Assembly (NCBI RefSeq): GCF_003751225.1
Contig: NZ_RJKE01000001.1
Location: forward strand, 7,254,001-7,318,000
Reading direction: 5' to 3'
DNA from: Actinocorallia herbida
GTDB taxonomy: Bacteria > Actinomycetota > Actinomycetes > Streptosporangiales > Streptosporangiaceae
Length of the DNA: 64,000 nt
Made by a program: the position numbers and the translations under genes. A model generated the notes under the pieces. That model was not told the DNA's origin, made no database searches, and saw only the letters and a list, made by a program, of their open reading frames with translations. How positions within the stretch are numbered: the first letter of the stretch is position 1; each line of letters opens with the position of its first letter. Below, in pieces: positions 30,095-45,475 of the stretch.

Positions 30095-30883
30095 CTAGAG
30101 GGTGCTCAGGAAGGCGGAGAGTTCCTTGTTGAAGGCTTCCGGGTTCTCCTGGTTGGCGAGGTGGCCGGCGTCGGGGACGACGGCCAGCGCGGCGCCGGGG
30201 ATCTGGGCTGCGATCGCTTCGCTCTCCGGGCGGCCGGTCACTCGGTCGTGTTCGCCGTAGAGGACGAGGGCGTGGGCGGTGATGTCTCCCATGGAGCCCT
30301 CCAGGTAGGTGGCGGCCATGGAGTCGGCGGCGTGGGCGTAGCCGGGGAGGCGGATGGCGGCGGCCATGGCCTTCGCGGCGGCCTCCACCTCGGCGGCGGG
30401 GGCCGTCGCGCGCAGGAGGCGCGGGGCTCGCACGGCGGAGAACGTCTCAGGGCCCGTCGAAGACAGCTCGGGGCCTCGGGCGCGCATGGCGGCGGCCTTT
30501 TCGGGGGTGGCGGCGGAGCCCCGGGTGCTGTCACCGAGGATCAGGGCGCGGACCAGGGAGGGGTGGCGCTGGGCCAGGCGCATCGCGATGACGCCGCCCC
30601 AGGACATGCCGAGGACGACGGCCGGGGCGCCGTGCGACGCGATCAGGACGGCGGCCAGGTCGGCGTAGCCGTCCATGCCGGGGGCCGAAGGCAGGGCCGG
30701 GGAGGCGGCGTAGCCGGGGGCGTCCCAGGCGACGACGTGGTAGCGGTCGGCGAAGGCCGTGAGCTGCGGGGCGAAGGAGGCGGAGCTGGAGCCTATGCCG
30801 TGGAGGCAGAGGAGGAGGGGGCCGTCGCCCGCCTCCCGCGTGTGCAGGAGACGGGCGGCGGCGGAGGCGTCGAAAGCGGTCAT
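30095..30883 (-). CDS. Alpha/beta hydrolase
   Basis: This 262-residue protein has the oxyanion motif LLLCLHGIGSSSASF, nucleophile elbow VLGMSWGGVIA (Ser at about residue 95), acid residue in LYGEHDRVTG and catalytic His in VPDAGHLANQENPEAF. The pattern fits the MhpC/enol-lactonase group, which cleaves C-C bonds, lactones or amides in ring-cleavage pathways. The ATG overlaps the cupin stop (ATGA), so it is the last gene of the transcript SDR-ThDP-VOC-cupin-hydrolase. The ring-cleavage product as substrate is inferred from those partners. Confidence 0.87.
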   Translation of the reverse strand: MTAFDASAAARLLHTREAGDGPLLLCLHGIGSSSASFAPQLTAFADRYHVVAWDAPGYAASPALPSAPGMDGYADLAAVLIASHGAPAVVLGMSWGGVIAMRLAQRHPSLVRALILGDSTRGSAATPEKAAAMRARGPELSSTGPETFSAVRAPRLLRATAPAAEVEAAAKAMAAAIRLPGYAHAADSMAATYLEGSMGDITAHALVLYGEHDRVTGRPESEAIAAQIPGAALAVVPDAGHLANQENPEAFNKELSAFLSTL

Positions 30884-31407
30884 CAGTCGCGGGTGACGCC
30901 GTGCATCTCGGAGGTGACCGGGTAGCTCGGGATGGCGGGCTTCCGGGTGCCGATGATGACGCAGATGCGGGCGTCCTCCTCGGAGACCGTCTTCAGGCTG
31001 CGGGGGACGCCGGCCGGGACGCAGAGGAGGTCGTACTTGCCGAGGACGCGGCTGGCGGTCTTGGTGCCGTCCTCCACGTCGTGCACGGAGAACTCGACCC
31101 GGCCCTCGAGGACGAAGAAGGCCTCCTCGACGTCCGGGTGGGTGTGCTCGGGGCCGACGCAGCCCGCGGGAAGGATCATGTTCGAGAAGGTGAAGTGGTC
31201 CGAGGGGATGATCGTCTGGTCGCCCTCGTGGTTACCGGTCGCACCCGAGCCGATGTAGCGGACCTGGCCGCGGCGGAACTTCTCGCCGGCCTTGGTCTGG
31301 AACTTCAGGGTGTCGAAGTCGGCGGTGCGGGTCGCGCTGGTGGCGAGGCACTTGTCGATGAGGGCTTCCAGCTCGGGCGTGCCGGTGGAGGTCGTGGTCT
31401 CGGTCAT
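30883..31407 (-). CDS. Cupin-domain protein
   Basis: This 174-residue protein has a single cupin barrel: ILPAGCVGPEHTHPDVEEAFFVLEGRVEF (motif 1, metal-binding H-x-H and E) and LGKYDLLCVPAGVPRSLKTVSEEDARICVIIG (motif 2, where the usual His is not obvious). An N-terminal stretch QVRYIGSGATGNHEGDQTIIPSDHF precedes the barrel. Such small cupins act as dioxygenases, isomerases or decarboxylases in aromatic catabolism. It is coupled to the alpha/beta hydrolase and lies 45 bp downstream of the extradiol-type gene. Confidence 0.85.
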   Translation of the reverse strand: MTETTTSTGTPELEALIDKCLATSATRTADFDTLKFQTKAGEKFRRGQVRYIGSGATGNHEGDQTIIPSDHFTFSNMILPAGCVGPEHTHPDVEEAFFVLEGRVEFSVHDVEDGTKTASRVLGKYDLLCVPAGVPRSLKTVSEEDARICVIIGTRKPAIPSYPVTSEMHGVTRD

Positions 31408-31451
31408 GATGCGCCTTTCGGTATCTCAGGGAACTGCTGCGGAGGACGTGC

Positions 31452-32357
31452 TCAGGCCCAGCCCGGGTCCGGCACTCCGCCCATGTGCTCGCGGATGTGC
31501 GGGCTGGGCGGCCCCGCTGTGCGGAAGAGGTCGGAGAGTTCCGGGATGCGCGGCCACACGCGCGGCATCCAGGTGTCCTCGTCGATCTGCATGACCTCGG
31601 CGGTCATCTCCGGGACGAGCCCGGCGGGGTCGACGTAGTAGGCGAACGCGTTGTCGCCGGGGCCGTGCCGGCCGGGGCCCCAGGCCGTCTCGTGCCCGGC
31701 GACCTTCAGCCTGCCGATGCTGCGCAGCCAGGCGTCGAGGTTCGCGACCTCGTAGGCGACGTGGTTGGGCGCCGCCCACTCGGCCTGGTTGAAGGCGATG
31801 ACGTGGTGGTCGCCGACCGCGCGCAGGAACACCATCTGGTGCTCCGACCAGTCGCTGACGCGCAGGCCGAGGACCCGGGTGTACCAGGCGGTGAGGGCGT
31901 CGATGTCGGTGGTGTTGAGCACGCAGTGCGCGACCTTGCGCGGGACCGGGACGTCCTGGGGCCGTTCGGCGACGGCGTGCACGTAGGCGCTGATCTCCAG
32001 GACCCGGTTCTCGGGGTCGAGGATCCGGAACCCGTAGCCGGCCCCTGGCCTGTCGATCCGGCCGGGCGGCTCGAGGATCGTCGCGCCCTCGGCGGCGGCC
32101 CAGGCGGCCGCGGCGTCGACCTCCTCGGGGGTCGGCAGCGCGAACGCGAGGTGGTCGAGCGCGTTGCGGTCGGCCGCGTGCAGCTGGAGCACGTGGTGCT
32201 CGGGTCCGGCGGCGCGCAGGTACGCGGCGTCGTCGGTGCGCTCCTGGACCTCCAGCCCCCACGGCCCGCTGTAGAAGGCGACGGACTCCTCGAGGGCCGT
32301 CGTCCGCAGCGCGACGTGGCGCAGGGCCCTGATCTTGGGGGGTGCCGGGGTGCTCAT
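31452..32357 (-). CDS. VOC-superfamily protein, extradiol dioxygenase-like
   Basis: This 301-residue protein has two glyoxalase/bleomycin-type modules. The first has ALRHVALRTTALEESVAFYSGPWGLEV. The second has RKVAHCVLNTTDIDALTAWYTRVLGLRV, NHVAYEVANLDAWL and YYVDPAGLVPEMTAEV, so two His and one Glu are placed as the Fe(II) triad of type I extradiol dioxygenases. The usual acid-base His and Tyr are partly recognisable. The likely role is ring cleavage of a catechol-like intermediate. It shares a transcript with the ThDP enzyme upstream and cupin downstream. Confidence 0.85.
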   Translation of the reverse strand: MSTPAPPKIRALRHVALRTTALEESVAFYSGPWGLEVQERTDDAAYLRAAGPEHHVLQLHAADRNALDHLAFALPTPEEVDAAAAWAAAEGATILEPPGRIDRPGAGYGFRILDPENRVLEISAYVHAVAERPQDVPVPRKVAHCVLNTTDIDALTAWYTRVLGLRVSDWSEHQMVFLRAVGDHHVIAFNQAEWAAPNHVAYEVANLDAWLRSIGRLKVAGHETAWGPGRHGPGDNAFAYYVDPAGLVPEMTAEVMQIDEDTWMPRVWPRIPELSDLFRTAGPPSPHIREHMGGVPDPGWA

Positions 32358-32409
32358 CGGCTGTCCTCTCGGATCGGATGGGGAAAGGTCGGGGGACGGT
32401 CTCGCGCGG

Positions 32410-34083
32410 CTAGTCGACGCCGGGGATCGAGACCGGCGGGGTGAACGGCTTGGGGATCGGGCCGAGCGCGTCCACGTCGACCTCGACGAAGACGGCCCCC
32501 CGGACGGACAGGGCCGCGGCGAGCGCGCCCTCGATCTCGTCGACGCTCTTGACCTTCCAGTACGGCAGGCCGTACGCCTGGGAGAGGAGGCCGAAGTCGG
32601 GGGTGGCGAGGTCGACGCCGGAGCGCCGCCCGACGAACCCGTCCTGGGTGTTGCGCAGGACGCCGTAGCCGCCGTCGTTGAACAGCAGGACGACGGCCCA
32701 GGGGTTCTCCTGCGCGAGCGTGCCGAGTTCGCCGAGGTGGACGGCGAAGCCGCCGTCTCCGGCGAGGATCAGGGAGGGCACGTCGGGCCGGGCGAGCGCG
32801 CCGCCGATGCCCATGGCCAGGCCCTGGCCGATGCCGCCGCCGCGCGGGAACACGTTGACGGACGGGTCCTCGACGGCGAGCAGCCGGTTGCCCCACATGC
32901 TGGACGGGATGGTGACGTCCCGGGCGAGGACCGCGGTCCGCGGGAAGGCCGAGCGGACGGCGTCGCAGATCTCGGCCTGCCAGCCGATGGAGGCCCGCAG
33001 TCCCTGCCGGGCGCCGCGCCGGGCGGCGGCGATCTCGGTGAGCCAGGTGCCGTCGGTGGCGGTGCGCTCGGGCAGCCGGTCGAGCAGGGCGCGCAGCACG
33101 GCGGCGGCGTCGCCCGCGAGTCCGGCGCTCGCCGCGTAGACCCGGCCGATGGCCGCGGGGTCGAGGTCGATCTGGACGTGCGCGGCGGGCAGCTCGAGCG
33201 CGTAGTCGCCGGTCTCGTTGCTGCGGAAGTGGGTGCCGATGCTGACGAGCAGGTCGGCGCGCTCGCGGACCGGCGCGACCGCCGGGTTCATCGCGAAGTT
33301 GCCGATGCACGCGCCGTGCCCCTCACCGACGACTCCTCGCCCGGAGTTGCTGGTGAGGAGCCCGGCACGGGTCCTGGTGAGCAGCTCGAGCACCTCGTCG
33401 CGGGCGTCGAGCGCGCCGCCTCCGACCCACAGCAGCGGGCGCTCGGCCGCGGCGATCAGCGCGGCGGCCTCGTCCAGCGCGGACGCGGAGGGCAGGGCCG
33501 CCTCCGGGCGGGGCGCGACGTCCAGGGCCGGGATCTCGTGCCGCTGGTACTGGAGGTCGATCGGCCACTCGACGCTGACCGGCCCGTAAGGGGCGGTCGC
33601 GGCCTCGCGGGCGGCGCGGGCGAGCAGTTCGGGCGCGCCGGCGACGTCCTCGACCGTGTAGGCGGCCTTGCTGACCGCGGCGAGCATGCCCGCCTGGTCC
33701 TTGGTCTCGTGGATGAAGCCGCGGCCCTGGCCGAGGTACCGGCTCTCGATCTGGCCGGTCACGTGCAGCACCCGCGACCCGGTGGCGAGGGCCTCGATGA
33801 GGGAGCCCGCGGCATTGCCCGCGCCGGTCCCGGTGCTGGTGAGCGCGATGCCGACGGTGCCGCGGACGCGTCCGTAGGCGTCGGCGGCGTTGACCGCGGC
33901 GGCCTCGTGCCGGACGGGGACGAAGCGCAGCCTCTCGGAGATCGCGTCGACCAGCGGCATGTTGTGCACGCTGACGACGCCGAAGGCGGTGTCGACGCCG
34001 AGCGCCTCCATGAGCGCGACGAGCAGGTCACCGCCGTTCACGACGTCGAGGGCGCGGCGGGGGGCGGGGGTCTGGTCAGACAT
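32410..34083 (-). CDS. Thiamine-diphosphate-dependent enzyme (acetolactate synthase / 2-keto acid decarboxylase family)
   Basis: This 557-residue protein has three domains. The N-terminal domain carries the activating Glu in VPVRHEAAAVNAADAYGR (about residue 60). A central domain follows (LLWVGGGALDARDEVLELL). The C-terminal domain has the ThDP motif GDGGFAVHLGELGTLAQ through NDGGYG. It resembles benzoylformate decarboxylase more than acetolactate synthase by length and lack of a regulatory partner. Decarboxylation of a 2-keto acid to an aldehyde would feed the island's aldehyde dehydrogenase (inference). The ATG at 34083 overlaps the SDR stop by 8 nt. Confidence 0.88.
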   Translation of the reverse strand: MSDQTPAPRRALDVVNGGDLLVALMEALGVDTAFGVVSVHNMPLVDAISERLRFVPVRHEAAAVNAADAYGRVRGTVGIALTSTGTGAGNAAGSLIEALATGSRVLHVTGQIESRYLGQGRGFIHETKDQAGMLAAVSKAAYTVEDVAGAPELLARAAREAATAPYGPVSVEWPIDLQYQRHEIPALDVAPRPEAALPSASALDEAAALIAAAERPLLWVGGGALDARDEVLELLTRTRAGLLTSNSGRGVVGEGHGACIGNFAMNPAVAPVRERADLLVSIGTHFRSNETGDYALELPAAHVQIDLDPAAIGRVYAASAGLAGDAAAVLRALLDRLPERTATDGTWLTEIAAARRGARQGLRASIGWQAEICDAVRSAFPRTAVLARDVTIPSSMWGNRLLAVEDPSVNVFPRGGGIGQGLAMGIGGALARPDVPSLILAGDGGFAVHLGELGTLAQENPWAVVLLFNDGGYGVLRNTQDGFVGRRSGVDLATPDFGLLSQAYGLPYWKVKSVDEIEGALAAALSVRGAVFVEVDVDALGPIPKPFTPPVSIPGVD

Positions 34084-34885
34084 AGCGGGCGACTCCTCCG
34101 GAGACCTCGAGCTGGGTGCCGGTGACATAGGAAGCGCGCGGCGACGCGAGGAACACGACGGCCGCGGCGACCTCTTCTGCGGTGCCGAAACGCCCTGCGG
34201 CGATCCGGCGGTTGGCGGCGATGGAACGCGCCCACTCGTCGTACGAGCCGGGCGACCGGCCCTCCTCGACCGCGGTGTCGTAGCGGCGGCGCCACTGGCC
34301 GGTGTCGATCAGGCCGACGCAGACCGAGTTGACGCGGATGCCGTCGGCGGCGAACTCGGCGGCCATCGACGTGGAGAGGTTGAGCAGTCCGGCGCGGGCG
34401 GCCGAGGTCGCCACGAGGTGCGGCTCGGGCTGGCGGGCGAGGACGGCGTTGAGGTTGACGATCGCGGCGGCGTCGGAGGCGCGCAGGGCCTCGAGCGCGG
34501 CGCGGGTCGGGTTGATCACGCCGAAGAACTTCAGGTCGACCTCGGCGCGCCAGGCGTCGTCGGTGGTGGTCTTGAAGGTCGAGGTGTGCGACCGGCCCGC
34601 GTTGTTGACCAGGACGTCGAGGCCGCCGAAGTGCGCGACGGCGGAGGCGACGAACGCGGTGGTCGTCTCGGCATCGGTGACGTCCGCGGTGCCGGTGTAC
34701 AGGCGGTCGCCGTACTGCTCGCGCAACGGGGCGAGGGCGGTCCTGAGCCTTTCGGGGTCGCGGCCGCAGGTCGCGACGTTCGCCCCTTCGGCGAGCAGCG
34801 ACGCCACGGTGGCGAGCCCGATGCCCGAGCTCCCCCCTGTGACAAGGGCCGTACGCCCGGTCAGTTCCAGTTCCATGAGCGGCAC
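34076..34885 (-). CDS. Short-chain dehydrogenase-fold protein without the catalytic triad
   Basis: This protein of up to 269 residues has a standard SDR cofactor site, ALVTGGSSGIGLATVASL (about residues 13-30), then DVLVNNAG and a C-terminal ASYVTGTQLEVSGG. At the active site, where SDRs have SS...YxxxK, the sequence reads NLNAVL and VATSAARAGLL. Ser is replaced by Ala, Tyr by Thr and Lys by Arg. The fold and NAD(P) site look intact, so it may be a non-redox enzyme or use other residues. GTG 34885 and ATG 34876 are both possible and neither has a ribosome site. Operators lie just upstream. Confidence 0.85.
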   Translation of the reverse strand: MPLMELELTGRTALVTGGSSGIGLATVASLLAEGANVATCGRDPERLRTALAPLREQYGDRLYTGTADVTDAETTTAFVASAVAHFGGLDVLVNNAGRSHTSTFKTTTDDAWRAEVDLKFFGVINPTRAALEALRASDAAAIVNLNAVLARQPEPHLVATSAARAGLLNLSTSMAAEFAADGIRVNSVCVGLIDTGQWRRRYDTAVEEGRSPGSYDEWARSIAANRRIAAGRFGTAEEVAAAVVFLASPRASYVTGTQLEVSGGVARYV

Positions 34886-34897: not shown

Positions 34898-34909
34898 CTC
34901 AGTACTAAG
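34898..34909. promoter_or_regulatory. Island operator copy A (CTCAGTACTAAG)
   Basis: This 12-bp near-palindrome, CTTAGTACTGAG on the other strand, differs at one base from the perfect core CTTAGTACTAAG. It lies 13 bp upstream of the SDR start, in the gap shared with the divergent aspartate-dehydrogenase-like gene. Related copies occur at 40196-40226 and 44866-44897. Confidence 0.6.
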
Positions 34910-34997: not shown

Positions 34998-35801
34998 ATG
35001 TCGCAAGCGACGACGGCGCCTCGCCCCCAGGCACCCGTGAAGGGGAAGGCCGTCGCGGTCCTCGGGTACGGCGCGATCGGCTCGGTCGTCTGCGACAGGC
35101 TGCTCGCCGGGGCGATCCCCGGAGCGCGGCTCGACTGCGTCGTCAGCCTCGACGGCGCCGACACCCCGGTGCCGGTCGTGACCGCCGAGGAGGCGATCGC
35201 GCGGGCCGACGTGCTCGTGGAGTGCGCCGGGCACGCGGCCCTCGCCGCGCACGGCCTCGCCGCCCTGAACGCCGGGGTGGACCTCGTCGTCTCCTCGGCG
35301 GGCGCGCTGACCGACAAGGCGCTGTACGACGGCCTGCGCGCGGCGGGTCCCGGCAGGCTGTTCCTCACCACGGGCGCGCTCGGCGGGCTCGACCTCCTCG
35401 CCGCGGCCGCCTCGGCCGCCCCGTTCACCTCGGTGCGGCTCACCACCACCAAGACACCGCGGGCGCTCGTCCAGGACTGGATGGACGACGCGCGCAAGGC
35501 CGAGCTGACGAACGCGACGGCGCCGCTCACCGTCTTCCGCGGCCCCGCCGAGGAGGCCGCCGGACTGTTCCCCAGGTCCCTCAACGTCGCCGCGACGCTG
35601 GCCCTGGCCCTGCCCGGCACCCCGGTCGAGGTGGAGCTCGTCGCCGACCCGGCCGCCGACGTCGTCACCCATGTGGTCTCGGCCGAAGGTCCGGTCGGCT
35701 CCTACCGGTTCGAGGTGCGCAACCTGCCGTCTCCGGAGAACCCCCGCACGAGCCGGGTCGTCCCCTACGCCGTCCTGCGCACGCTGCGCGACGCGCTGTA
35801 G
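34998..35801 (+). CDS. Aspartate dehydrogenase-like protein (NadX family)
   Basis: This 267-residue protein has a Rossmann start VAVLGYGAIGSVVCDRLL (residues ~18-35), then VECAGHAALAAHG, TTGALGGLDLLAAA, FPRSLNVAATLALALPG and a C-terminal RFEVRNLPSPENPRTSRV with the conserved NP-TS region. This order is the L-aspartate dehydrogenase (NadX) family. The position in a catabolic island rather than with nadA/nadC suggests deamination of aspartate or a related amino acid to a 2-keto acid, for which the ThDP enzyme would be the next step (inference). AAGGAG precedes the ATG. It is convergent with the aldehyde dehydrogenase gene. Confidence 0.87.
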   Translation: MSQATTAPRPQAPVKGKAVAVLGYGAIGSVVCDRLLAGAIPGARLDCVVSLDGADTPVPVVTAEEAIARADVLVECAGHAALAAHGLAALNAGVDLVVSSAGALTDKALYDGLRAAGPGRLFLTTGALGGLDLLAAAASAAPFTSVRLTTTKTPRALVQDWMDDARKAELTNATAPLTVFRGPAEEAAGLFPRSLNVAATLALALPGTPVEVELVADPAADVVTHVVSAEGPVGSYRFEVRNLPSPENPRTSRVVPYAVLRTLRDAL

Positions 35802-35868: not shown

Positions 35869-37341
35869 TCAGTCGGCCCAGGGGATGGGCATCCCGCTGA
35901 CGTCGACGTAGACACTCTTCTGCCGCTGGTAGGCGCGGATGGCGTCCGCGCCCTTCTCCCGGGTGGAGCCGGAGTCCTTGAACCCGCCGAACGGCGTGGC
36001 GACGGACAACTGCTTGTAGGTGTTGATCCACACCTGCCCGGCCTTGAGGGCGCGGGCCGTCCGCCACGCCTTGGGGAAGTCGCGCGTCCACACGCCCGCG
36101 GCGAGACCGTAGACGGTGTCGTTGGCCTGCGCGATCAGGTCCGCCTCGTCCTCGAACGGGATCACCACGAGGACCGGCCCGAAGATCTCCTCCTGGGCGA
36201 TCCGGGAGGAGTTGCCCACCCCGGTGATGATCGTCGGCCGCAGGTAGGTCCCGCAGGCCAGGGCGGGATCGTCCGGCCGGACTCCCCCGGCGACGACCTT
36301 GCCGCCTTCGGCGGTGCCGAGCCCGATGTACTCCTCGACCGAGGTGCGGTGCCGGTCGGTGATGAGCGGGCCCATCTGGGTGCGTTCGTCGCGGGGGTGG
36401 CCGACCCGCAGGGCGTCCGCGCGCGCGGCGAGCCGGGCGACGACCTCGTCGAAGACCGCGCGCTGCACGAAGAGCCGGGACCCGGCGATGCAGGACTGCC
36501 CCTGGGAGCTGAAGATGCCGTACAGGACGCCGTTCACGGCGACGTCGAGGTCGGCGTCGTCGAACACGATCGTCGGGGACTTGCCGCCGAGCTCCAGCGA
36601 GGTCGTCATGAGCTTGCGCGCCGCCGAGGCCGCGAGGCCGCGCCCGGTGTCGGTGCCGCCGGTGAAGGAGACGTGCCCGACCTCGGGGTGGTCCACGATG
36701 CGCTGGCCGACGGTGCCGCCCGCGCCCGGCAGGACGCTGACGAGTCCGGGCGGGAAGCCCGCCTCCAGCAGGATCTCGCCGACCTTGAGGGAGATCAGCG
36801 GCGCCCAGCCCGCGGGCTTGAGGACGACCGCGTTGCCGCCGGCCAGGGCCGGGGCGAGCTTCTGCGCGTCGGAGGCGATCGGCGAGTTCCACGGGGTGAT
36901 CGCGCCGACCACGCCGATCGGCTCGTGCACCGACAGGGTGAGGTACTGCCCGCGCGGGACGGTGAGCCGCTCGTCGGAGCTCTCCAGCACCGCCGCGACA
37001 TAGCGGAAGGTGCCCGCCGCGCTGGCGACCAGCGCCCGCGTCTCGGTGATCGGCTTGCCGTTGTCGCGCGACTGGAGGACCGCGAGCTCCTCGTGCCGGG
37101 CCTCGATCAGCTCGGCCGTCCTGGTGAGGAGCCGGGCCCGCACGTGCGGCAGCATCCGCAGCCAGGCCGGGTCGGACTGCGCGGCGACCGCGCGCTCGAC
37201 GGCGAGGTCCACGTCCTCCTCGGACGCCGCCGCCACGGTCGCGACGGGGGTGCCCTCGGCCGGGTCGACGCTGGTGATCGGCTTGCCTCGGCCGTCCTGG
37301 AGGACGCCGCCGATCAGGATCGGAAGGGGGTTCTGTGCCAT
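35869..37341 (-). CDS. Aldehyde dehydrogenase
   Basis: This 490-residue NAD(P)-dependent aldehyde dehydrogenase has VGAITPWNSPIASDAQKLAPAL, FTGGTDTGRGLA, the catalytic Glu in SLELGGKSPTIVFDDADLD and the catalytic Cys in SQGQSCIAGSRLFV. EEIFGPVL and PFGGFKDSGSTREKG complete the family pattern. The length is normal. It oxidises an aldehyde to the acid, and its place after an importer and near the ThDP enzyme suggests the aldehyde from that decarboxylation. It starts 10 bp after the permease stop, so it is the last gene of the transporter operon. Confidence 0.92.
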   Translation of the reverse strand: MAQNPLPILIGGVLQDGRGKPITSVDPAEGTPVATVAAASEEDVDLAVERAVAAQSDPAWLRMLPHVRARLLTRTAELIEARHEELAVLQSRDNGKPITETRALVASAAGTFRYVAAVLESSDERLTVPRGQYLTLSVHEPIGVVGAITPWNSPIASDAQKLAPALAGGNAVVLKPAGWAPLISLKVGEILLEAGFPPGLVSVLPGAGGTVGQRIVDHPEVGHVSFTGGTDTGRGLAASAARKLMTTSLELGGKSPTIVFDDADLDVAVNGVLYGIFSSQGQSCIAGSRLFVQRAVFDEVVARLAARADALRVGHPRDERTQMGPLITDRHRTSVEEYIGLGTAEGGKVVAGGVRPDDPALACGTYLRPTIITGVGNSSRIAQEEIFGPVLVVIPFEDEADLIAQANDTVYGLAAGVWTRDFPKAWRTARALKAGQVWINTYKQLSVATPFGGFKDSGSTREKGADAIRAYQRQKSVYVDVSGMPIPWAD

Positions 37342-38247: not shown

Positions 38248-39117
38248 TCAGTGCTCCTCGGTGCCGGAGGAGGCCGCGTCGTAGCCGATCTTCAGCAGGT
38301 CGCGGGCCTCGCGGACGTAGTTCTGGAACGGAGCTGAGGTCATCACCTCCGGGTCGCGCGGCTTGATCAGGTCGACGTCGACGATGCCGGCGATGCGACC
38401 GGGTCTGGCGCTCATCACCACGACGCGGTCGGCGAGGAAGACCGCCTCGCTGATCGCGTGGGTGACGAACACCGCGGTGCGGCCGGTCAGCTTGCAGATC
38501 CGCGCGAGTTCCACGTTCATGTGCTCGCGGGTGAACTCGTCGAGCGCGCCGAACGGCTCGTCGAGCAGGAGGACTCCGGGGTCCTGGATGAGCATGCGGC
38601 AGATCGCCGCGCGCTGCTGCATGCCGCCGGACAGCTCGTTCGGCATCTTGTCGGCGAAGGCGCCGAGGCCGACGAGGTCGAGCAGCTCGTCCGCCCGGGG
38701 CGTCGCGGCCTTGGCGGCCTTTCGGCCCCGGGAGATCTCGATCGGGAGCAGGACGTTCTCCCGGATCGTGCGCCAGGCGAGCAGGACCGCCTTCTGGAAC
38801 ATCATCCCGACCTCGTCGGGCACCCCGTCGACGTCCGTGCCGCCGACCTGGACGACGCCCGAGGTCTGCGGCAGGAGGCCGCCGATGATGTTGAGAAGGG
38901 TGCTCTTCCCGCATCCCGAGGGACCGAGCAGGGCCACGAACTCCCCGGGCTCGATGTCCAGGGACACCGGGCCGAGGGCGTGGACGGTCTCCCCGTCGCG
39001 CGTGAAGGTCCGGACGACGTCGTGGACGTGGACGGACGCCCCAGTCGCGGGCCCGTCGGCCGCGGAGTTCTTCGGGTCGGCCGCGGGCAGATCCGCGGTC
39101 ATTCGGTGCTGTGGCAT
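38248..39117 (-). CDS. ABC transporter ATP-binding protein (SsuB/TauB family)
   Basis: This 289-residue ATPase has an N-terminal extension of about 30 residues, Walker A LLGPSGCGKST, Q-loop GMMFQKAVLLAWRTI, signature LSGGMQQRAAICRML, Walker B VLLLDEPFGALDE and the H-loop VFVTHAISEAVFLADRV. It energises the adjacent permease. The ATG at 39117 is preceded by AGAGGGAAG. Order and spacing with the substrate-binding and permease genes indicate one operon. Confidence 0.93.
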   Translation of the reverse strand: MPQHRMTADLPAADPKNSAADGPATGASVHVHDVVRTFTRDGETVHALGPVSLDIEPGEFVALLGPSGCGKSTLLNIIGGLLPQTSGVVQVGGTDVDGVPDEVGMMFQKAVLLAWRTIRENVLLPIEISRGRKAAKAATPRADELLDLVGLGAFADKMPNELSGGMQQRAAICRMLIQDPGVLLLDEPFGALDEFTREHMNVELARICKLTGRTAVFVTHAISEAVFLADRVVVMSARPGRIAGIVDVDLIKPRDPEVMTSAPFQNYVREARDLLKIGYDAASSGTEEH

Positions 39118-39155: not shown

Positions 39156-40169
39156 CTACTTGCCGCTCGAATTCCAGGCTTCGACGTGGTCGTTGGTGAC
39201 GGCCTGGGCGCCGTCGGCGGACTCGATGAGCTTCAGGTCCGCGAGCTGCCCCGCGAACGCCGTGAAACCCTCGGTGTCGATGTGGCCGTACTCGCCCCCG
39301 GCGCTCGCGGGCAGCGTCAGCAGGTCGCTCACCCGGTCGTAGATGACCTTGGCGAAGGCCGGGTCCTCGGTCTCCTCGGGCGCGTGCTTCCCGCAGATCT
39401 CGATGACGCCGTCGGGGTTGGCGAGGCCCCACTCGGTGCCGCGCGCGAGCGCCCTGCCGAACTTGTCGACGGTCTCGCCGTTGGCCGCGGCCCACTTGTT
39501 CGTGGCGACGAGGAAGTTGTCGACGAGCTGGGGCTCGTCGGCCACGTGCAGCGCGGTCAAGTCGAGGTCGCCGCCCTTGATGACCTCCTCGTCGAAGAAC
39601 GAGGCGGCGTAGGCGTCGACGGTGCCCTTCTTCAGCGCGGTGGCCGCCGAGGAGCCGTCGCCGACCGCGAGCTGCTTGTAGTCGGCGTCCTTGGTGAGGC
39701 CCGCCCGGGAGGCCAGCCACTCCTGGTAGATGACGTCGCCGCCGCCGGGGGCGCTGATGCCGACGGTCTTGCCCTTGAGGCCGGCGACGTCGGTGATGCC
39801 CGAGCCGGTCGGGGTGATCACCGCGAAGGTGCTCTTCTGGTACAGCGCGTAGAAGGCCTGGAGGCCCGCGCCGGTGGAGGTGGCCGACAGGTAGGCGTTG
39901 GGCGCGGCCGCGGCGAGCTCGGCCTTGCCGGTCAGCGTCGCCTGGACGGCGCCGCCGGACCCGTCGGTCGCCTCGAAGGAGGCGTTGATGCCCTCCTCGT
40001 CGAAGTAGCCCTTGTCCTCGGCGACGTAGAGGGGGTACCAGGACAGGCAGCTCGCGAACGGAAGGGCGACGGTGACGTCGCCGGACGCGGTCGCCGGGTC
40101 GTCTCCGCCGCAGGCGGAAGCGAACACGGCCGTGGCCGCGAGGGCGGAGGCCAGAAGCTTCTTCGACAT
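39156..40169 (-). CDS. ABC transporter substrate-binding lipoprotein (NMT1/THI5-like)
   Basis: This 337-residue protein has a lipoprotein signal, MSKKLLASALAATAVFASAC, with the lipobox Cys at residue 20. The NMT1-like domain follows: VALPFASCLSWYPLYVAEDKGYFDEEGINASF, KGKTVGISAPGGGDVIYQEWL, and a C-terminal NDHVEAWNSSGK. This fold binds small anions or heteroaromatic and pyrimidine-type ligands. It is the first gene of the importer/aldehyde dehydrogenase operon, and the island operator with a perfect 11-bp inverted repeat lies just upstream. Confidence 0.9.
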   Translation of the reverse strand: MSKKLLASALAATAVFASACGGDDPATASGDVTVALPFASCLSWYPLYVAEDKGYFDEEGINASFEATDGSGGAVQATLTGKAELAAAAPNAYLSATSTGAGLQAFYALYQKSTFAVITPTGSGITDVAGLKGKTVGISAPGGGDVIYQEWLASRAGLTKDADYKQLAVGDGSSAATALKKGTVDAYAASFFDEEVIKGGDLDLTALHVADEPQLVDNFLVATNKWAAANGETVDKFGRALARGTEWGLANPDGVIEICGKHAPEETEDPAFAKVIYDRVSDLLTLPASAGGEYGHIDTEGFTAFAGQLADLKLIESADGAQAVTNDHVEAWNSSGK

Positions 40170-40195: not shown

Positions 40196-40226
40196 TTCTT
40201 AGTACTTGAATTATTAGTACTAAGAA
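40196..40226. promoter_or_regulatory. Island operator copy B (perfect 11-bp inverted repeat)
   Basis: TTCTTAGTACT (40196-40206) and AGTACTAAGAA (40216-40226) are exact complements with a 9-bp spacer. Each half contains a version of CTTAGTACTAAG, at 40198-40209 and 40213-40224, with centres 15 bp apart. It lies 26 bp upstream of the substrate-binding lipoprotein start, in an AT-rich promoter. Confidence 0.75.
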
Positions 40227-40335: not shown

Positions 40336-40995
40336 TCAGCCGCGGGTCAGCCGGTATCCGGCGGTGCGGCGGCCGAGCAGGAACGCGAGCAGGACGCCGA
40401 GCACGACCGCGAAGGGCGCGGCCTTCCTGGCCAGCACGGGCCCGGCCACCGAACCGAGGTCCAGCGGCGGAGCCGCCGCGAGCGGCGTGGCCGGCGCCCG
40501 TCCCGCGGGGGCGGCCACCGCCCGGGGAGCCGCGGCGGCGGCCTGCGCGCCCTGCCCGCCGTCGGTGAGCGCCGCCTGGATGTTGGCCGCGAACGCCGCC
40601 ACCACCTTGTCGCCGACCTCGCTGATGACACCGCGCCCGAACTGCGCGGCGCGTCCGGAGATGTCGACGCGGGTGTCCACGACGACCCGGGTCGCCCCCG
40701 CCTCGTCGCTCAGCCTGCACACCACGTCCGCGGAGACCGCCCCCGCGCCCTTGGTCTCGGCGGCCTCCACCCGCAGCGCCACGGTGTCCGCGGCACCGTC
40801 CAGGAAGCTGCCCTTGCCCCGGTAGGACATGGTGATCGCGCCGACCTTGACGCTCATCCGGCCGGTGAACTCGCCGCCGTCGAACCCTTCGAGGACCGCG
40901 CCGGGCATGCACGGGGCGAGCCGCGTGACGTCGTGCAGGACGTCCACCGCCTCGGCGAGCGGGACGGGCACGGTGAAGGAGTGCTGAAGCTCCAT
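40336..40995 (-). CDS. CoxG-family SRPBCC protein with C-terminal membrane anchor
   Basis: This 219-residue protein has an N-terminal CoxG/SRPBCC domain (MELQHSFTVPVPLAEAVDVLHDVTRLAPCMPGA, VKVGAITMSYRGKGSF) to about residue 150. An Ala/Pro linker and a hydrophobic segment (FAVVLGVLLAFLLG) followed by a basic tail complete it. CoxG in carbon-monoxide dehydrogenase operons recruits the hydroxylase to the membrane through such an anchor. Here it ends the coxMSL-like operon, 12 bp after the large subunit, so the same role for this molybdenum hydroxylase is likely. Confidence 0.88.
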   Translation of the reverse strand: MELQHSFTVPVPLAEAVDVLHDVTRLAPCMPGAVLEGFDGGEFTGRMSVKVGAITMSYRGKGSFLDGAADTVALRVEAAETKGAGAVSADVVCRLSDEAGATRVVVDTRVDISGRAAQFGRGVISEVGDKVVAAFAANIQAALTDGGQGAQAAAAAPRAVAAPAGRAPATPLAAAPPLDLGSVAGPVLARKAAPFAVVLGVLLAFLLGRRTAGYRLTRG

Positions 40996-41007: not shown

Positions 41008-43395
41008 TCAGTGCCGGGCGGACGACGCCGCGCGGAGAAGGTCCTTGACCCGGCTCGGGGTGAGCGGGCCTCGGGTGATGTGGACGTGGTCGGGCCCCAG
41101 CGCGTCCTCGACGGCGTTGGCGATGACGGCGGGCGGGGCGATCGCGCCGCCTTCGCCGAGGCCCTTCACCCCGAGGGGGTTGAGGGTGGATCTGGTCTCG
41201 ATGTGGTCGAGCACGTACGGCGGCGCCTCCGCGGCCGTCGGGACCAGGTAGTCCATGTAGGTGACCGAACGGGGCTGGCCGTCGGGGCCGTACTCCATCT
41301 CCTCGTACAGGGCGCCGCCGATGCCCTGCATGACGCCGCCGGTGACCTGGCCGTCGGCGACCATGGGGTTCACCACCCGGCCGCAGTCGTGCACGATCGC
41401 GTAGGAGAGGATCTCGGTCTTGCCGGTCCGCTCGTCCACCTCGACGATCGCGCCGTGCGCGGCGCTGGCCACGGTCACGGTCGGCGGCTTGAAGAAGGTG
41501 GTCTCGCTGATCACCGCGCCGGGGCCGGTGCTGGTGCCCGGGACGAGCAGCGGGGCGCGGCGGGCGGCGAGGACCGCGACGTCGATCCCGGCCTCCGGCT
41601 CGTCGACCGGGCGGACGATCCCGTCGACGATCTCCAGGTCCTCCGGCGCGGTGCCGAGCAGCCCGGACGCGTCGGCGAGCACCTGCTCGCGGACCGCCAG
41701 CGCGGCCAGGTGGATGGCGTTGCCCGCGGTGACCATGCTCCGGCTCGCGATCGTGCCGACGCCGTGGCCGATCACGCCGGTGTCGCCCTCGCGCAGGTCG
41801 ATCCGGTCGATCGGGACGCCGAGCGCGTCGGCGGCGACCTGGGCGAACACCGTCTGGTGCGCCTGGCCCTGGGAGCTGGCGCCGGTCGCGACCCTGATCC
41901 GGCCGGTCGGCAGGACCGTCACCGACCCGCTCTCGAACGGGCCGAGGCCGGTGCCCTCGATGTAGAGGGCGAGGCCGACGCCGAGCCGCTTGCCGGGCGC
42001 GACGTCCCCGGTCCGCTGCCGCTCCCGGATCTCGTCAATCTTCAGATGCCCGACGACGCGGCGCAGCAGCTCGGGGAAGTTCCCCGAGTCGTAGGTCTGC
42101 GTCGTCCCGTCGCGGTACATGAGGCCGGTGCGGTGCGGCATGTTCTCGGGCCGGACGAGGTTGCGGGCGCGCAGTTCGTGCGGCTCGATCCCCATCTTGC
42201 GGGCGAGCCTGTCCATCGCCCGTTCCATGGCGAAGACCGCCTCGGGGCGTCCGGCGCCGCGGTAGGGCGTCGCCATCATCGTCGTGGTGACCGCGCCGCG
42301 GACACGGAGGTCCAGCGCGGGGATCACATACGGGCCGATGACGTGGGTCAGCGTGTTGTAGGGGACGACCAGCCCGGTGAGGTTGGCGTTCCCGAGGTTG
42401 AGCACGGCGTCGTCGCGGAGCGCGAGGAGCCTCCCGTCGGCGTCGGCGGCGAGGGTGATGTCGTGCACCTGCTCGCGGGCGTGCGAGGAGGAGGTCAGGT
42501 TCTCGGTGCGGTCCTCGATCCAGCGGACCGCGCGGCCCAGGCGGTGCGCGGCGTAGGGCACGAGCACGTCCTCGACGTACTGGACGCCCTTCTGGCCGAA
42601 GCCGCCGCCGATGTCGGGCGCGGTCACCCGGACGTGGTCGGGATCGACCCGCAGGGTGCCCGCGATGACCTCGCGCAGCCGGTGCGGCGTCTGGGTGGAG
42701 GCGAAGACGGTCAGGGACCTGTCGCGCGGGTCGAGGGTGACCGCGACCCCTCGGGTCTCCATCGGCGAGGCGACGTACCGGTGCGACCGGTACCGCTCGG
42801 TCACCACGAAGGCGGCCTCGGCGAGCGCCGCGTCCACGTCGCCGACCCTGCCCTCGACGGAGATGGCCAGGTTGTCCTCGGTGCCCGGGACCACCGCGGG
42901 GGCGTCCGGCGCGAGCGCGTCCAGCGGGTCGACCAGCGCGGGCAGCGGCGCGTAGCCGACCTCGACCAGCTCCACCGCGTCCTCGGCGAGGTACCTGTCC
43001 TCGGCGACGACCATCACCACGGCCTGGCCGACGCAGGTGACCCGGCCGTCGGCGAGCAGCGGCACGGGCTGGAGCCGGGACAACGGCTTGATCGCCTCGC
43101 GGACCTGGTCGGGGATGCGCATCTCGGCTTCGAGGAACAGCGCCGAGACGGTGTCGCGGATGTCGTCCCAGGAGTAGACGGCGACGACGCCGGGCAGCGC
43201 GCGGGCCGCCGCGCAGTCGATCCGGGTGATTTCGGCGTGCGCGTGCGGGCTCCGCACGAAGGCGATCTCCAGGGCGCCGGGCAGCCGCAGGTCGGCGAGG
43301 AAGCGGCCCCTGCCGCGCAACAGCGCGTCGTCCTCCTTGCGCAGGACGGAAGTGCCGATCAGGCCGGTCCCGCCGGTCGCGGGGGCTGCGCTCAT
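41008..43395 (-). CDS. Molybdenum hydroxylase large (molybdopterin-binding) subunit
   Basis: This 795-residue xanthine-oxidase-family subunit begins IGTSVLRKEDDALLRGRGRFLADL. It has APDIGGGFGQKG for the cofactor, PYRGAGRPEA at the Mo site, and the catalytic Glu in GVKGLGEGGAIAPPAVIANAVEDAL. The AYRGAGR-type loop differs from the Cys-containing AYxCSFR loop of true CO dehydrogenases, so this is a form II enzyme with an organic, probably N-heteroaromatic, substrate. The start at ATG 43395 overlaps the small-subunit stop. XdhC, needed for maturation of such enzymes, is encoded at 23.6 kb. Confidence 0.92.
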   Translation of the reverse strand: MSAAPATGGTGLIGTSVLRKEDDALLRGRGRFLADLRLPGALEIAFVRSPHAHAEITRIDCAAARALPGVVAVYSWDDIRDTVSALFLEAEMRIPDQVREAIKPLSRLQPVPLLADGRVTCVGQAVVMVVAEDRYLAEDAVELVEVGYAPLPALVDPLDALAPDAPAVVPGTEDNLAISVEGRVGDVDAALAEAAFVVTERYRSHRYVASPMETRGVAVTLDPRDRSLTVFASTQTPHRLREVIAGTLRVDPDHVRVTAPDIGGGFGQKGVQYVEDVLVPYAAHRLGRAVRWIEDRTENLTSSSHAREQVHDITLAADADGRLLALRDDAVLNLGNANLTGLVVPYNTLTHVIGPYVIPALDLRVRGAVTTTMMATPYRGAGRPEAVFAMERAMDRLARKMGIEPHELRARNLVRPENMPHRTGLMYRDGTTQTYDSGNFPELLRRVVGHLKIDEIRERQRTGDVAPGKRLGVGLALYIEGTGLGPFESGSVTVLPTGRIRVATGASSQGQAHQTVFAQVAADALGVPIDRIDLREGDTGVIGHGVGTIASRSMVTAGNAIHLAALAVREQVLADASGLLGTAPEDLEIVDGIVRPVDEPEAGIDVAVLAARRAPLLVPGTSTGPGAVISETTFFKPPTVTVASAAHGAIVEVDERTGKTEILSYAIVHDCGRVVNPMVADGQVTGGVMQGIGGALYEEMEYGPDGQPRSVTYMDYLVPTAAEAPPYVLDHIETRSTLNPLGVKGLGEGGAIAPPAVIANAVEDALGPDHVHITRGPLTPSRVKDLLRAASSARH

Positions 43396-43904
43396 CGGTC
43401 GGCTCCTTCGGGGGCGTGCTCGCACGGGGCGGTGTCCGCGCCCAGCGCACGGCGGGCGGCCGCGGTGATGTTGCGGTAGCCGGTGCACCGGCAGAGGTGG
43501 CCCGACAGGGTCTCGTCGATCTCCTCCTCGGCCACCGTCCCGGCGCCCTCGGCCCGCTCGTGCAGCGCGACGAGGCTCATCACGATGCCGGGGGTGCAGA
43601 AGCCGCACTGGAGGCCGTGGCAGTCGCGCATCGCCTGCTGCACCGGGTGCAGCGCGTCCTCGGACGGCGCGACGGACTCGACGGTGCGGATCCGGCGGCC
43701 CTCGGCCTGGACGGCCAGGGTCAGGCAGGCGCGCACGGGCCTGTCGTCCATGAGCACCGTGCAGGCGCCGCACACGCCGTGCTCGCAGCCGACATGGGTG
43801 CCGGTCAGGCCGAGCCGGTCGCGCAGCGCGTCGGTGAGCAGCATCCGGTCGGGCACGTCGAGGCGGTGCTCCCGGCCGTTGACGTGAAGGGTGATCTCAG
43901 GCAT
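43392..43904 (-). CDS. Molybdenum hydroxylase [2Fe-2S] subunit
   Basis: This 170-residue protein has two iron-sulfur domains. The N-terminal plant-ferredoxin-like domain has GCEHGVCGACTVLMD and a fourth Cys in RACLTL. The C-terminal helical domain has CGFCTPGIVMSL and HLCRCTGYRNI. It passes electrons from the Mo site to the FAD subunit. The ATG at 43904 overlaps the FAD-subunit stop by 8 nt. Starting further upstream would add a Pro-rich stretch unlike the family. Confidence 0.93.
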   Translation of the reverse strand: MPEITLHVNGREHRLDVPDRMLLTDALRDRLGLTGTHVGCEHGVCGACTVLMDDRPVRACLTLAVQAEGRRIRTVESVAPSEDALHPVQQAMRDCHGLQCGFCTPGIVMSLVALHERAEGAGTVAEEEIDETLSGHLCRCTGYRNITAAARRALGADTAPCEHAPEGADR

Positions 43905-44790
43905 CGGCGGTGCTCCCGGCTGGGGTTCTGGCGAACGCGTCGGCCAGCGTGGTCGCGACCAGGTGGGCGGCGACCTCACGGCGGTAGTCGGCGGAGGCAT
44001 GGCTGTCGGAGCCGGGGTCGAGGTGCTCGGCGGCCACGCGCGCGGCCTCCTCGAACGCCTCGGCGGTGGCGGGCCGGCCGGTGAGCAGGTCCTCGGCCTC
44101 GGGCAGCCGGACGGGGGTGGAGGCGACGCCGAACAGGGCGAGCCGTGCCTCTTCCACCGTCCCGGCGGCGTCCGTGCGCAGGAGCGCGACGCAGCCGACG
44201 AGCGCGAAGTCGCCGCTGCGCCGGGCCACCTCCGCGAAGGCCCAGCCGGTGGCCGGAGCGGGCAGCGGGAACTGCACGGCGGTGACGATCTCGTCGGCCG
44301 CGAGGGCGGTGTCGAACGTCCCGGTGAAGAAGGACGCGGCCGCGTAGGAGACGGGTCCCCGCGGCCCGAACGCCAGGATCTCGGCGTCCAGCGCGAGCGC
44401 TACCGCGGGCAGTTCGGCCGACGGATCGTGGTGCGCGATGCTGCCGCAGACGGTGCCGCGGTTGCGGATCTGGGAGTGCCCGATCCGGGCGATCGCCGCG
44501 GCCAGCACCGGCAGGTGCGCCCGCACCAGCGGGTGCGCGGCCACGTCGGCCTGGGTCGCGGTGGCGCCGACCTCGAGGCGCCCGGCCACCACGTCGACGT
44601 AGTCGAGGGCGCTGAGCGCGCCGATGTCGACGAGGGTGCCGGGGCGGGCCAGCCGCATGTTGAGCATCGGCACGAGCGACTGCCCGCCCGCGATGACCTT
44701 GGCGTCCGGGTCGGCGGCCAGCAGGTCGACGGCCTCGCCGAGCGTGGCGGCCCTGCGGTAGGTGAACGGCGCGGGCTTCACTGCCGCCAC
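43897..44790 (-). CDS. Molybdenum hydroxylase FAD-binding subunit
   Basis: This 297-residue protein of the CoxM/PCMH-type FAD family has AGGQSLVPMLNMRLARPGTLVDIG for the pyrophosphate and RNRGTVCGSIAHHDPSAELPAVALAL, the TxGG-type second loop. It is the first gene of the operon FAD-FeS-Mo-CoxG, all overlapping or within 12 bp. The ATG at 44790 faces the MarR gene across a 151-bp gap that holds two copies of the island operator. Confidence 0.92.
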   Translation of the reverse strand: MAAVKPAPFTYRRAATLGEAVDLLAADPDAKVIAGGQSLVPMLNMRLARPGTLVDIGALSALDYVDVVAGRLEVGATATQADVAAHPLVRAHLPVLAAAIARIGHSQIRNRGTVCGSIAHHDPSAELPAVALALDAEILAFGPRGPVSYAAASFFTGTFDTALAADEIVTAVQFPLPAPATGWAFAEVARRSGDFALVGCVALLRTDAAGTVEEARLALFGVASTPVRLPEAEDLLTGRPATAEAFEEAARVAAEHLDPGSDSHASADYRREVAAHLVATTLADAFARTPAGSTADA

Positions 44791-44865
44791 CTCGCGTGTG
44801 TGGTCATTGGGGGTTCCTCTCCTGGACTTCCCGGCGCTGCGCCCACGGCCCCGTACACTAGAAGT

Positions 44866-44897
44866 CTTGATACTGAGATTGTTTGCTTAGTCCAAAG
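44866..44897. promoter_or_regulatory. Island operator copies C1 and C2
   Basis: CTTGATACTGAG (44866-44877) and CTTAGTCCAAAG (44886-44897) match the core CTTAGTACTAAG at 9 and 10 of 12 positions, with centres 20 bp apart. They lie between the hydroxylase operon and the divergent MarR gene. Confidence 0.5.
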
Positions 44898-44903
44898 ATG
44901 TTC

Positions 44904-44923
44904 AGTCCAGAGAGATCTGGACT
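44904..44923. promoter_or_regulatory. Palindrome in the MarR leader
   Basis: AGTCCAGA and TCTGGACT form a perfect 8-bp inverted repeat with GAGA between, 18 bp before the MarR ATG. It is probably an autoregulatory operator and differs in sequence from the island core. Confidence 0.55.
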
Positions 44924-44941
44924 CCGGGTGGGGAGATCCGC

Positions 44942-45475
44942 ATGACGACCGAGCTGGACGAGAACTTCCGCGACGAGGTCGACGAGATCGTCGATCAGTG
45001 GCGGGAGCAGCGCCCCGATGTCGTGCCCGACGCGATCGGCGTCTTCGGCCGGATCACCCGGACCTACCTCACCCAGCGCGCGATCCTGCGCGAGGTCCAC
45101 GAGCGCCACGGCCTGACCCTCGCCGCCTTCGACGTGCTGGCCAACCTGCGCCGCTCCGGCGCCCCGCACCGCAAGACCGCCGGTGAACTGGCCGAGTCAT
45201 CCCTGCTCACCTCGGGCGGGATCACCTTCCGGCTCGACAAGATGGAGGCCGACGGCCTGATCCGCCGCAGCCGCTCGCTGGAGGACCGCAGGGTCGTCTA
45301 CGCCGAACTCACCGAACTCGGCCTCGCCAAGATCGACGAGGTGTTCGCCGAGCACCTCGCGGTCGAGCAGGGCATGCTCGGCCTGCTGGAACCCGCCGAG
45401 ATCGCCCAGCTCTCGGCGCTGCTGCGCAAGCTCGGCGCCTCGGTCGCGCAGGGCGCCCGCCCCGCCGACGGCTGA
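44942..45475 (+). CDS. MarR-family transcriptional regulator
   Basis: This 177-residue protein has a central winged helix: LTLAAFDVLANLRRSGAPHRKTAGELAESSLLTSGGITFRLDKMEADGLI, then the wing RRSRSLEDRRVVYAELTELG. Helices for dimerisation lie on either side. GGGGAG precedes the ATG. It is divergent from the molybdenum hydroxylase operon and is the only regulator gene in the 30-45 kb island, so it is the best candidate to bind the CTTAGTACTAAG sites. MarR proteins of aromatic pathways usually release DNA on binding a pathway acid or CoA ester. Confidence 0.9.
   Translation: MTTELDENFRDEVDEIVDQWREQRPDVVPDAIGVFGRITRTYLTQRAILREVHERHGLTLAAFDVLANLRRSGAPHRKTAGELAESSLLTSGGITFRLDKMEADGLIRRSRSLEDRRVVYAELTELGLAKIDEVFAEHLAVEQGMLGLLEPAEIAQLSALLRKLGASVAQGARPADG

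Follow-up and report, generated by a model that had tools for sequence, protein, structure and literature searches.

Introduction

Which compound is broken down by a block of genes in the actinobacterium Actinocorallia herbida that combines a molybdenum (Mo) hydroxylase, an SsuABC-type importer, and a set of candidate ring-cleaving, decarboxylating, and aldehyde-oxidizing enzymes? The block occupies positions 30095–45475 of a stretch of 64,000 nucleotides (hereafter, the window; NCBI RefSeq assembly GCF_003751225.1, contig NZ_RJKE01000001.1, positions 7,254,001 to 7,318,000 of the forward strand), and the host genome is a single contig of 9.8 Mb with high GC content. A first-pass annotation had proposed a catabolic island for an aromatic or N-heteroaromatic compound, and a catabolic unit, probably for an N-heteroaromatic, is supported by the gene set and the conserved core. 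Herein, the locus is read, with moderate confidence, as a MarR-controlled, modular catabolic unit for quinoline-2-carboxylates, i.e., the kynurenate/xanthurenate family, including quinaldate and 8-hydroxyquinaldate. More tentatively, the locus and its relatives may be the missing gene set of bacterial kynurenate/xanthurenate catabolism, in which nitrogen would leave as iminosuccinate and carbon as glutarate, the hydroxylation and imine steps would be swapped between unrelated enzymes, and two active sites would be unusual. The gene set, its conservation, the swaps, the operator motif, and the active-site residues are taken from sequence; from these, we infer every substrate and the order of the steps.

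Gene Content of the Block

All genes named by the first-pass annotation are present, as judged from family matches and coordinates, and the block comprises 15 real genes, i.e., 14 genes and that of the MarR regulator:

30095–30883, minus strand: alpha/beta hydrolase, Ser-Asp-His (family match and conserved residues)
30883–31407, minus strand: cupin, H-x-H...E-E, with Arg at the would-be fourth ligand position (Arg in 97/97 relatives)
31452–32357, minus strand: two-domain vicinal oxygen chelate (VOC) extradiol-type dioxygenase, His-His-Glu triad (93/93 relatives)
32410–34083, minus strand: thiamine diphosphate (ThDP)-dependent enzyme, PRK07064 (685.7 bits, cut-off 495)
34076–34876, minus strand: short-chain dehydrogenase/reductase (SDR) with Thr/Arg replacing Tyr/Lys, PRK07062 (370.7, cut-off 266)
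34998–35801, plus strand (opposite): aspartate dehydrogenase (AspDH)-like protein, NadX family (PF01958)
35869–37341, minus strand: aldehyde dehydrogenase (ALDH; PF00171; Cys/Glu/Asn 90/90)
37352–38245, minus strand: SsuC-type ABC permease (Pfam/NCBIfam match)
38248–39117, minus strand: SsuB-type ABC ATPase (Pfam/NCBIfam match)
39156–40169, minus strand: NMT1/SsuA-type substrate-binding protein (family match)
40336–40995, minus strand: CoxG-family protein (PF06240)
41008–43395, minus strand: Mo hydroxylase large subunit, with PYRGAGR in its sequence (family match)
43392–43904, minus strand: Mo hydroxylase 2Fe-2S subunit (Pfam match)
43897–44790, minus strand: Mo hydroxylase FAD subunit (family match)
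44942–45475, plus strand: MarR regulator (PF12802/PF01047)

Third-position GC reaches 92–98% in the 12 block genes picked by the gene-call script; the SsuC, SsuB, and 2Fe-2S genes lie outside its list and are based on Pfam matches. The ThDP enzyme and the SDR exceed the curated cut-offs of NCBIfam NF005470 (PRK07064) and NF005468 (PRK07062), respectively, and both families are thus already catalogued as equivalog models, without function. The AspDH-like protein falls below the NadX equivalog TIGR03855 (162.4 vs. 206.55) and below the cut-offs of seven other listed AspDH models, meeting only the fold family PF01958. The ALDH resembles, under cut-off, hydroxymuconic semialdehyde dehydrogenases among others.

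Conservation of the Core

The core was defined as the extradiol-type VOC protein, cupin, alpha/beta hydrolase, ThDP enzyme, SDR, AspDH, and ALDH, with at least five of these seven genes required per locus. A one-per-species genome scan for the ThDP gene provided 190 confirmed loci, the best 80 of which were used, and neighbors were mapped by tblastn of the window genes around the loci. A starting set of 98 loci was reduced by removing four duplicates (L136, L137, L145, and L147) and the plasmid loci L118–L121. Among the remaining 90 actinobacterial loci, 84 carry at least five core genes (L038, L050, L059, L106, L115, and L149 carry fewer), and the window itself carries all seven. Individual homologs scattered over other genomes would, according to the first-pass annotation, have spoken against an island; the core genes instead stay together. 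The usual order in Streptomyces is MFS-ALDH-VOC-AspDH-hydrolase-cupin-SDR2-SDR-ThDP-reductase-Rieske-MarR, SDR2 being a second SDR. The core was further recognized by annotation, accompanied by IclR, on plasmid records of Caballeronia, Novosphingobium (where it forms two nearby groups), Paracoccus, Pseudosulfitobacter, Nitratireductor, Vibrio, and Acinetobacter, and by tblastn in Cupriavidus and two Burkholderia. The block is therefore a conserved bacterial gene cluster of actinobacteria and Proteobacteria and no isolated oddity.

Among named loci, that of Actinomadura sp. CNU-125 has the nearest ThDP gene (86% identical). At E ≤ 1e-120, this gene was found in 13 of 341 genomes of the host's family, the host included, and in neither of two genomes of the same genus; the block is therefore accessory and patchy. 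The ThDP gene of Nocardiopsis salina (L115/L147, 2143–3712) aligns in two pieces and hence may be frame-shifted or reflect an assembly error.

Operator Sites and the Extent of the Unit

Further features lie within and outside 30095–45475:

23604–24695, minus strand: XdhC/CoxI-type Mo-cofactor maturation factor, divergent from the FAD monooxygenase (PF13478/PF02625)
24729–24739, plus strand: operator half-site CTTAGTCCTAA between XdhC and the FAD monooxygenase (one of four genome matches)
24774–25901, plus strand: FAD-dependent aromatic monooxygenase (FMO), similar to 3-hydroxybenzoate 6-monooxygenase/salicylate hydroxylase (PF01494)
25898–26566, plus strand: IclR-type regulator overlapping the FMO (family match)
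29975–30014, strand not assigned: strong, terminator-like hairpin downstream of the main operon
34899–34909, minus strand: operator half-site in the SDR/AspDH divergent promoter (motif match)
40196–40226, strand not assigned: 31-bp operator dyad TTCTTAGTACTTGAATTATTAGTACTAAGAA upstream of the importer operon (dyad and motif match)
44886–44896, plus strand: operator half-site between the FAD subunit and MarR (motif match)

The three promoter sites within the block read CTTAGTACTGA, CTTAGTACTAA, and CTTAGTCCAAA. Genome-wide, the 11-base consensus CTTAGTMCWRA is matched at four places, all of them promoters of the locus (three within the block and that at 24729), and the reversed control pattern at seven; the pattern was written with all four sites already known, and the consensus can be derived from the three in-block sites alone. 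The shorter CTTAGTMC occurs nine times in 80 other loci (1.6 Mb), i.e., seven times just upstream of MarR (65 MarR genes examined), once in an MFS/ALDH gap, and once in an ALDH/VOC gap. MarR is accordingly proposed as a ligand-released repressor of the four promoters.

Because the match at 24729 lies at the XdhC/FMO promoter, the originally described extent is too narrow: its listed genes are real, and the ring-activating FMO and XdhC were overlooked. As judged from the operator, the unit is larger, and XdhC, FMO, and IclR belong at a promoter with the same site. The best NCBIfam model for the FMO is PRK08163 (276.7 bits, below its cut-off of 459), and FMO relatives 65–84% identical occur in actinobacterial clusters. 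In the closest relative of the locus (L046), the FMO directly adjoins the hydrolase and has the XdhC homolog next to it, and the region upstream of the monooxygenase holds CTTAG/CTAAG halves; in L110, L189, and L190, the XdhC homolog adjoins the Mo hydroxylase. The FMO-IclR pair is also present in L170 and L173. The window IclR spans 222 residues vs. 253 in the Caballeronia relative (L173), a stretch of the effector domain being apparently gone in frame.

Exchangeable Modules

The first exchange concerns a hydroxylation step. With FMO counted at 50% identity or more, 68 of the 84 loci carry a Rieske oxygenase and SDR2 without FMO (67 with a reductase and one with Rieske and SDR2 alone), six carry Rieske, SDR2, reductase, and FMO together, and six carry FMO and neither Rieske, SDR2, nor reductase (PDR), although these loci are related and the counts do not represent independent events. 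The remaining four are mixed, with SDR2 and reductase only in L144 and in L105 (truncated at a contig end), FMO and SDR2 in L094, and Rieske and reductase in L140. The Vibrio plasmid carries FMO and lacks Rieske and SDR2, and the best Rieske match of the host genome is 35% identical over part of the protein only. The Ser-Tyr-Lys residues of SDR2 are kept in 92/92 sequences. Hence, FMO appears to replace Rieske, reductase, and SDR2 in some lineages, and both may make a ring diol; the gene sets suggest that Rieske and SDR2 would reach the catechol via a cis-diol and that FMO would hydroxylate an already phenolic ring. A protein of approximately 100 residues annotated as "recombinase-like HTH" (PF20552; L118, 8764–9072) precedes the Rieske gene in several Proteobacteria, as do its tblastn relatives in several actinobacterial loci, and may assist the oxygenase instead of acting as a regulator.

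The second exchange concerns the exit of nitrogen. Of the 84 loci, 11 lack AspDH; RidA (PF01042) is found in eight of these 11 vs. two of the 73 AspDH-positive loci. Whole-genome searches of 10 of the 11 AspDH-less genomes (all except the source of L148) recovered no AspDH; a similar search of Nocardiopsis L038 located AspDH in a second locus. RidA proteins act on 2-imino acids by hydrolysis and AspDH converts iminosuccinate and aspartate into each other, so that their common substrate is probably iminosuccinate. RidA would thus stand in for AspDH in some lineages, and both may act on a 2-imino acid. In the Caballeronia locus L173, a RidA gene (12318–12734) lies between those of Rieske and the PDR-reductase, and the locus also has an AspDH-like match.

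The Mo hydroxylase module is optional but repeatedly linked to the core. It was surveyed in 61 cluster-bearing genomes, i.e., 12 chosen Streptomyces (eight picked for XdhC/FAD hits at the locus edge and four sister loci) and 49 further genomes (66 further loci wanted, 50 selected, and L087 left out), with differing E-value limits (1e-100 and 1e-180). A large subunit 52–59% identical occurs in 14 of the 61, and in eight of these it lies within approximately 12 kb of the ThDP gene. Nine of the 12 Streptomyces have it (57–59% identical), seven at approximately 12 kb from the ThDP gene, one at 45 kb, and one on another contig; five of the 49 have it (52–58% identical), with adjacency to the core seen only in Nocardia L110. 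The order FAD-FeS-Mo-CoxG, flanked by MarR genes, stands beside the core in all three fetched Streptomyces regions, two of which include XdhC. Other Mo hydroxylases, approximately 30% identical, adjoin the core in L114, L138, and L139 and a ThDP-VOC pair in L155. The latter locus, on pNK84 of Caballeronia sp. NK8 (the strain of L118), holds ferredoxin, HTH_62, Rieske, ThDP, VOC, the divergent Mo hydroxylase, and CoxG-like genes at 13116–22347 and an ALDH-VOC-reductase-MFS-SDR group at its left edge (1–5796); the genes at 13116–22347 may handle a related substrate. By sequence, the closest solved Mo subunits are those of 6-hydroxypseudooxynicotine dehydrogenase, followed by quinoline 2-oxidoreductase. 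The NCBIfam cut-offs for aerobic CO dehydrogenase are not reached (739.3 vs. 950 and 462.7 vs. 991.15), and PYRGAGR differs from the form I motif of CO dehydrogenase.

Active Sites of the Core Enzymes

Active-site residues were counted after the exclusion of L136, L137, L145, L147, and L155 and of matches below 35% identity (25% for VOC and hydrolase). The VOC metal triad and the Cys/Glu/Asn set of ALDH are invariant. The hydrolase Ser is kept in 98/99, the ThDP Glu in 101/102, and the catalytic His of AspDH in 85/86 sequences, the one remaining row in each case not covering the site. The "TxxxR" SDR singled out by the first-pass annotation is borne out, with Thr and Arg at the usual Tyr/Lys positions in 99/100 relatives and the remaining row not covering the site, and the cupin His-His-Glu-Glu set accompanies its Arg in 97/97. 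On these alignments, the active sites of the Thr/Arg SDR and the Arg-cupin are unusual and strictly conserved. The SDR profile has a single PDB sequence match at E ≤ 1e-50, namely Q9HYA2 (PDB 3lf1/3lf2), a Pseudomonas aeruginosa protein for which an atypical catalytic center has been reported. The predicted SDR structure has a mean pLDDT of 83.3, with residues 146–156 beside the catalytic site poorly modeled. The hydrolase profile matches esterases best, followed by enol-lactonase and alpha-(N-acetylaminomethylene)succinate hydrolase.

A Proposed Pathway and Its Alternatives

The bacterial kynurenate route first forms the 7,8-dihydrodiol and from it the 7,8-diol, which extradiol cleavage turns into a product bearing a 3-carboxy-3-oxopropenyl side chain. 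Reduction of this product, its decarboxylation to an aldehyde, and formation of a propionate side chain on 4,6-dihydroxypicolinate follow. Quinaldate 4-oxidoreductases, moreover, are Mo hydroxylases. Rieske/FMO, SDR2, VOC, SDR, ThDP enzyme, and ALDH would match these steps one to one, with the families for each activity present together. The kynurenate/xanthurenate/quinaldate pathway accordingly appears to be the best fit, because the Mo hydroxylase, extradiol enzyme, ThDP enzyme, and ALDH co-occur and modules are swapped. In the proposed scheme, the substrate would be imported through the SsuABC-type transporter, and the Mo hydroxylase, matured by XdhC, would add the 4-hydroxyl using water oxygen. 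FMO would then hydroxylate the phenolic benzo ring to 7,8-dihydroxykynurenate, a task that would fall to Rieske oxygenase, reductase, and the SDR2 diol dehydrogenase in other bacteria. Extradiol cleavage by VOC would leave a pyridine carrying a 3-carboxy-3-oxopropenyl side chain, whose double bond would be reduced by the Thr/Arg SDR (a proposed C=C reductase or isomerase); the ThDP enzyme, as a proposed 2-oxo acid decarboxylase, would remove CO2, and ALDH would yield the propionate side chain. Finally, the hydrolase (proposed as a lactam or C–C hydrolase) and the cupin would open the 4,6-dihydroxypicolinate ring hydrolytically and, with cleavage between C4 and C5, yield glutarate (C5) and iminosuccinate (C4, with the ring nitrogen), in line with the carbon balance, in which C10 minus CO2 equals C4 plus C5. 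Such a cleavage would explain the presence of AspDH or RidA: AspDH would reduce iminosuccinate to aspartate, and RidA would, in other lineages, hydrolyze it to oxaloacetate and ammonia. This ring-opening end (cupin, hydrolase, and AspDH/RidA) is proposed in the present analysis.

The scheme retains the import, Mo hydroxylation, extradiol-type cleavage, decarboxylation, aldehyde oxidation, and nitrogen loss near the NadX-like step of the first-pass annotation and alters the order: AspDH/RidA is placed last, and ThDP and ALDH trim the side chain before the pyridine is opened. Overall, the first-pass interpretation is partly supported; it named no published pathway with this set, and the chemistry matches the old kynurenate pathway, with NCBIfam models existing for two of the families without a function.

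Several observations weigh against this assignment. Tryptophan dioxygenase and kynureninase were not found in 108 loci (one query each), and the host genome lacks tryptophan dioxygenase. In one open-access library, the papers listed by the searches include none that links these families to kynurenate or gives genes for its pathway, and subscription journals may hold gene assignments. The kynurenate reading and the ring-cleaving activity of VOC are predictions from genes, and the roles of the cupin, hydrolase, and Thr/Arg SDR are guesses. No Mo hydroxylase was found in 47 of the 61 cluster genomes searched; L105 and L144, two of 84 loci, show neither Rieske nor FMO at the thresholds used; RidA is lacking in three AspDH-less loci, i.e., L105 and, not cut short, L094 and L148; and the RidA cases are mostly Mycobacteriales, implying few independent swap events. 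CTTAGTMC is missing from L046, 58 of the 65 other MarR upstream regions, and the three fetched Streptomyces regions. In the Pseudosulfitobacter locus L151 (21367–24653), LysR, CoA transferase, and acyl-CoA dehydrogenase genes adjoin the cluster; a dicarboxylic product could feed into the enzymes encoded there, but their family scores are not diagnostic of glutarate breakdown.

The same logic of diol formation, extradiol cleavage, trimming of a 2-oxo acid by ThDP enzyme and ALDH, hydrolytic opening, and imino acid exit would also serve a different benzo-fused N-heteroaromatic (an indole-, isoquinoline-, or quinolone-type acid), since the sequence evidence limits reaction types and not the exact ring. 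This alternative is considered unlikely, although still the strongest of those weighed: AspDH/RidA would imply a nitrogen alpha to a carboxylate beside a two-carbon unit, an arrangement found in a 2-carboxylated pyridine ring, and kynurenate-type acids are probably the simplest common compounds with such a ring. A monocyclic amino-aromatic of the aminophenol/hydroxyanthranilate type, passing by meta-cleavage to 2-aminomuconate semialdehyde and then via ALDH, RidA/AspDH on a 2-imino acid, and decarboxylation, would agree with the extradiol-type VOC and the below-cut-off likeness of the ALDH to hydroxymuconic semialdehyde dehydrogenases, and 2-aminomuconate deaminases are RidA-family proteins. 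We regard it as improbable because the Mo hydroxylase would be needless, a ThDP enzyme would be unusual in such routes, the block genes include no hydratase/aldolase lower pathway, and Rieske attack on anilines normally sheds nitrogen early.

More doubtful still is that two separate pathways, one made up of the Mo hydroxylase/SsuABC half and the other of the ThDP/VOC half, are merely co-located under one regulator. At E ≤ 1e-180, 44 of the 49 further genomes have no Mo hydroxylase, and that of G388 is approximately 4 Mb away from the cluster; however, the operator motif is common to all four promoters, seven Streptomyces and a Nocardia have the same Mo module close to the core, and the divergent Mo hydroxylase stands beside the ThDP-VOC pair on Caballeronia pNK84. 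Sulfonate catabolism (cysteate to sulfopyruvate to sulfoacetaldehyde), suggested by SsuABC, was dropped because an extradiol enzyme, a Rieske oxygenase, and an FAD monooxygenase are among the partners.

Implications and Other Genes of the Window

To our knowledge, no sequences are known for kynurenate dihydroxylation, 7,8-dihydroxykynurenate dioxygenase, and the later steps, and the quinoline-2-carboxylate reading, if true, would supply their genes. Kynurenic and xanthurenic acids are tryptophan waste products studied in host-microbe signaling, and the occurrence of the core in soil Streptomyces, Rhodococcus, and plasmid-filed Burkholderia, Acinetobacter, and Vibrio would give the annotation a wide reach. 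Furthermore, the module swaps illustrate that a given step of a pathway may be filled by unrelated enzymes. Elsewhere in the window, IclR, AMP-binding enzyme, zinc alcohol dehydrogenase, and glutamine-synthetase-like genes lie downstream (48160–53648), and a group of ornithine cyclodeaminase-like, IclR, and amidohydrolase genes at 60513–63676 is possibly a separate small catabolic unit.

Comparison with Known Systems

The Mo hydroxylases of N-heteroaromatics, e.g., quinoline 2-oxidoreductase and 6-hydroxypseudooxynicotine dehydrogenase, consist of FAD, FeS, and Mo subunits, as does that of the window, which scores below every listed NCBIfam cut-off. The iad (indole-3-acetate) operon of Variovorax resembles the cluster in MarR control, an ABC-transporter binding protein, and an N-heteroaromatic acid substrate, and relatives of the cluster in its Rieske oxygenase (PMC12633357, PMC10374108, PMC9613470, PMC11630574). 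An iad identity, suggested by the Rieske gene and its recombinase-like HTH neighbor, was rejected: the nine described iad genes (of 25) that were compared rely on an acyl-CoA synthase, a thiolase, an alcohol dehydrogenase, and an enzyme similar to kynurenine formamidase, all absent from the window block, and the ThDP/AspDH/VOC/cupin core is not named among those nine (PMC12633357). The 15 block genes include no iad acyl-CoA synthase, thiolase, or formamidase-like gene.

The classical bacterial kynurenate (quinoline) pathway was reportedly studied chemically by Hayaishi and co-workers in approximately 1961. According to a later account, certain pseudomonads metabolize kynurenic acid to glutamate, alanine, and organic acids (PMC11354673, citing the 1961 paper). 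The entry proposed for the window differs and would comprise a Mo hydroxylase and an FAD monooxygenase. Otherwise, the classical pathway resembles, step for step, the activities proposed for the cluster, namely diol formation, a diol dehydrogenase, extradiol cleavage, reduction, decarboxylation, and aldehyde oxidation.

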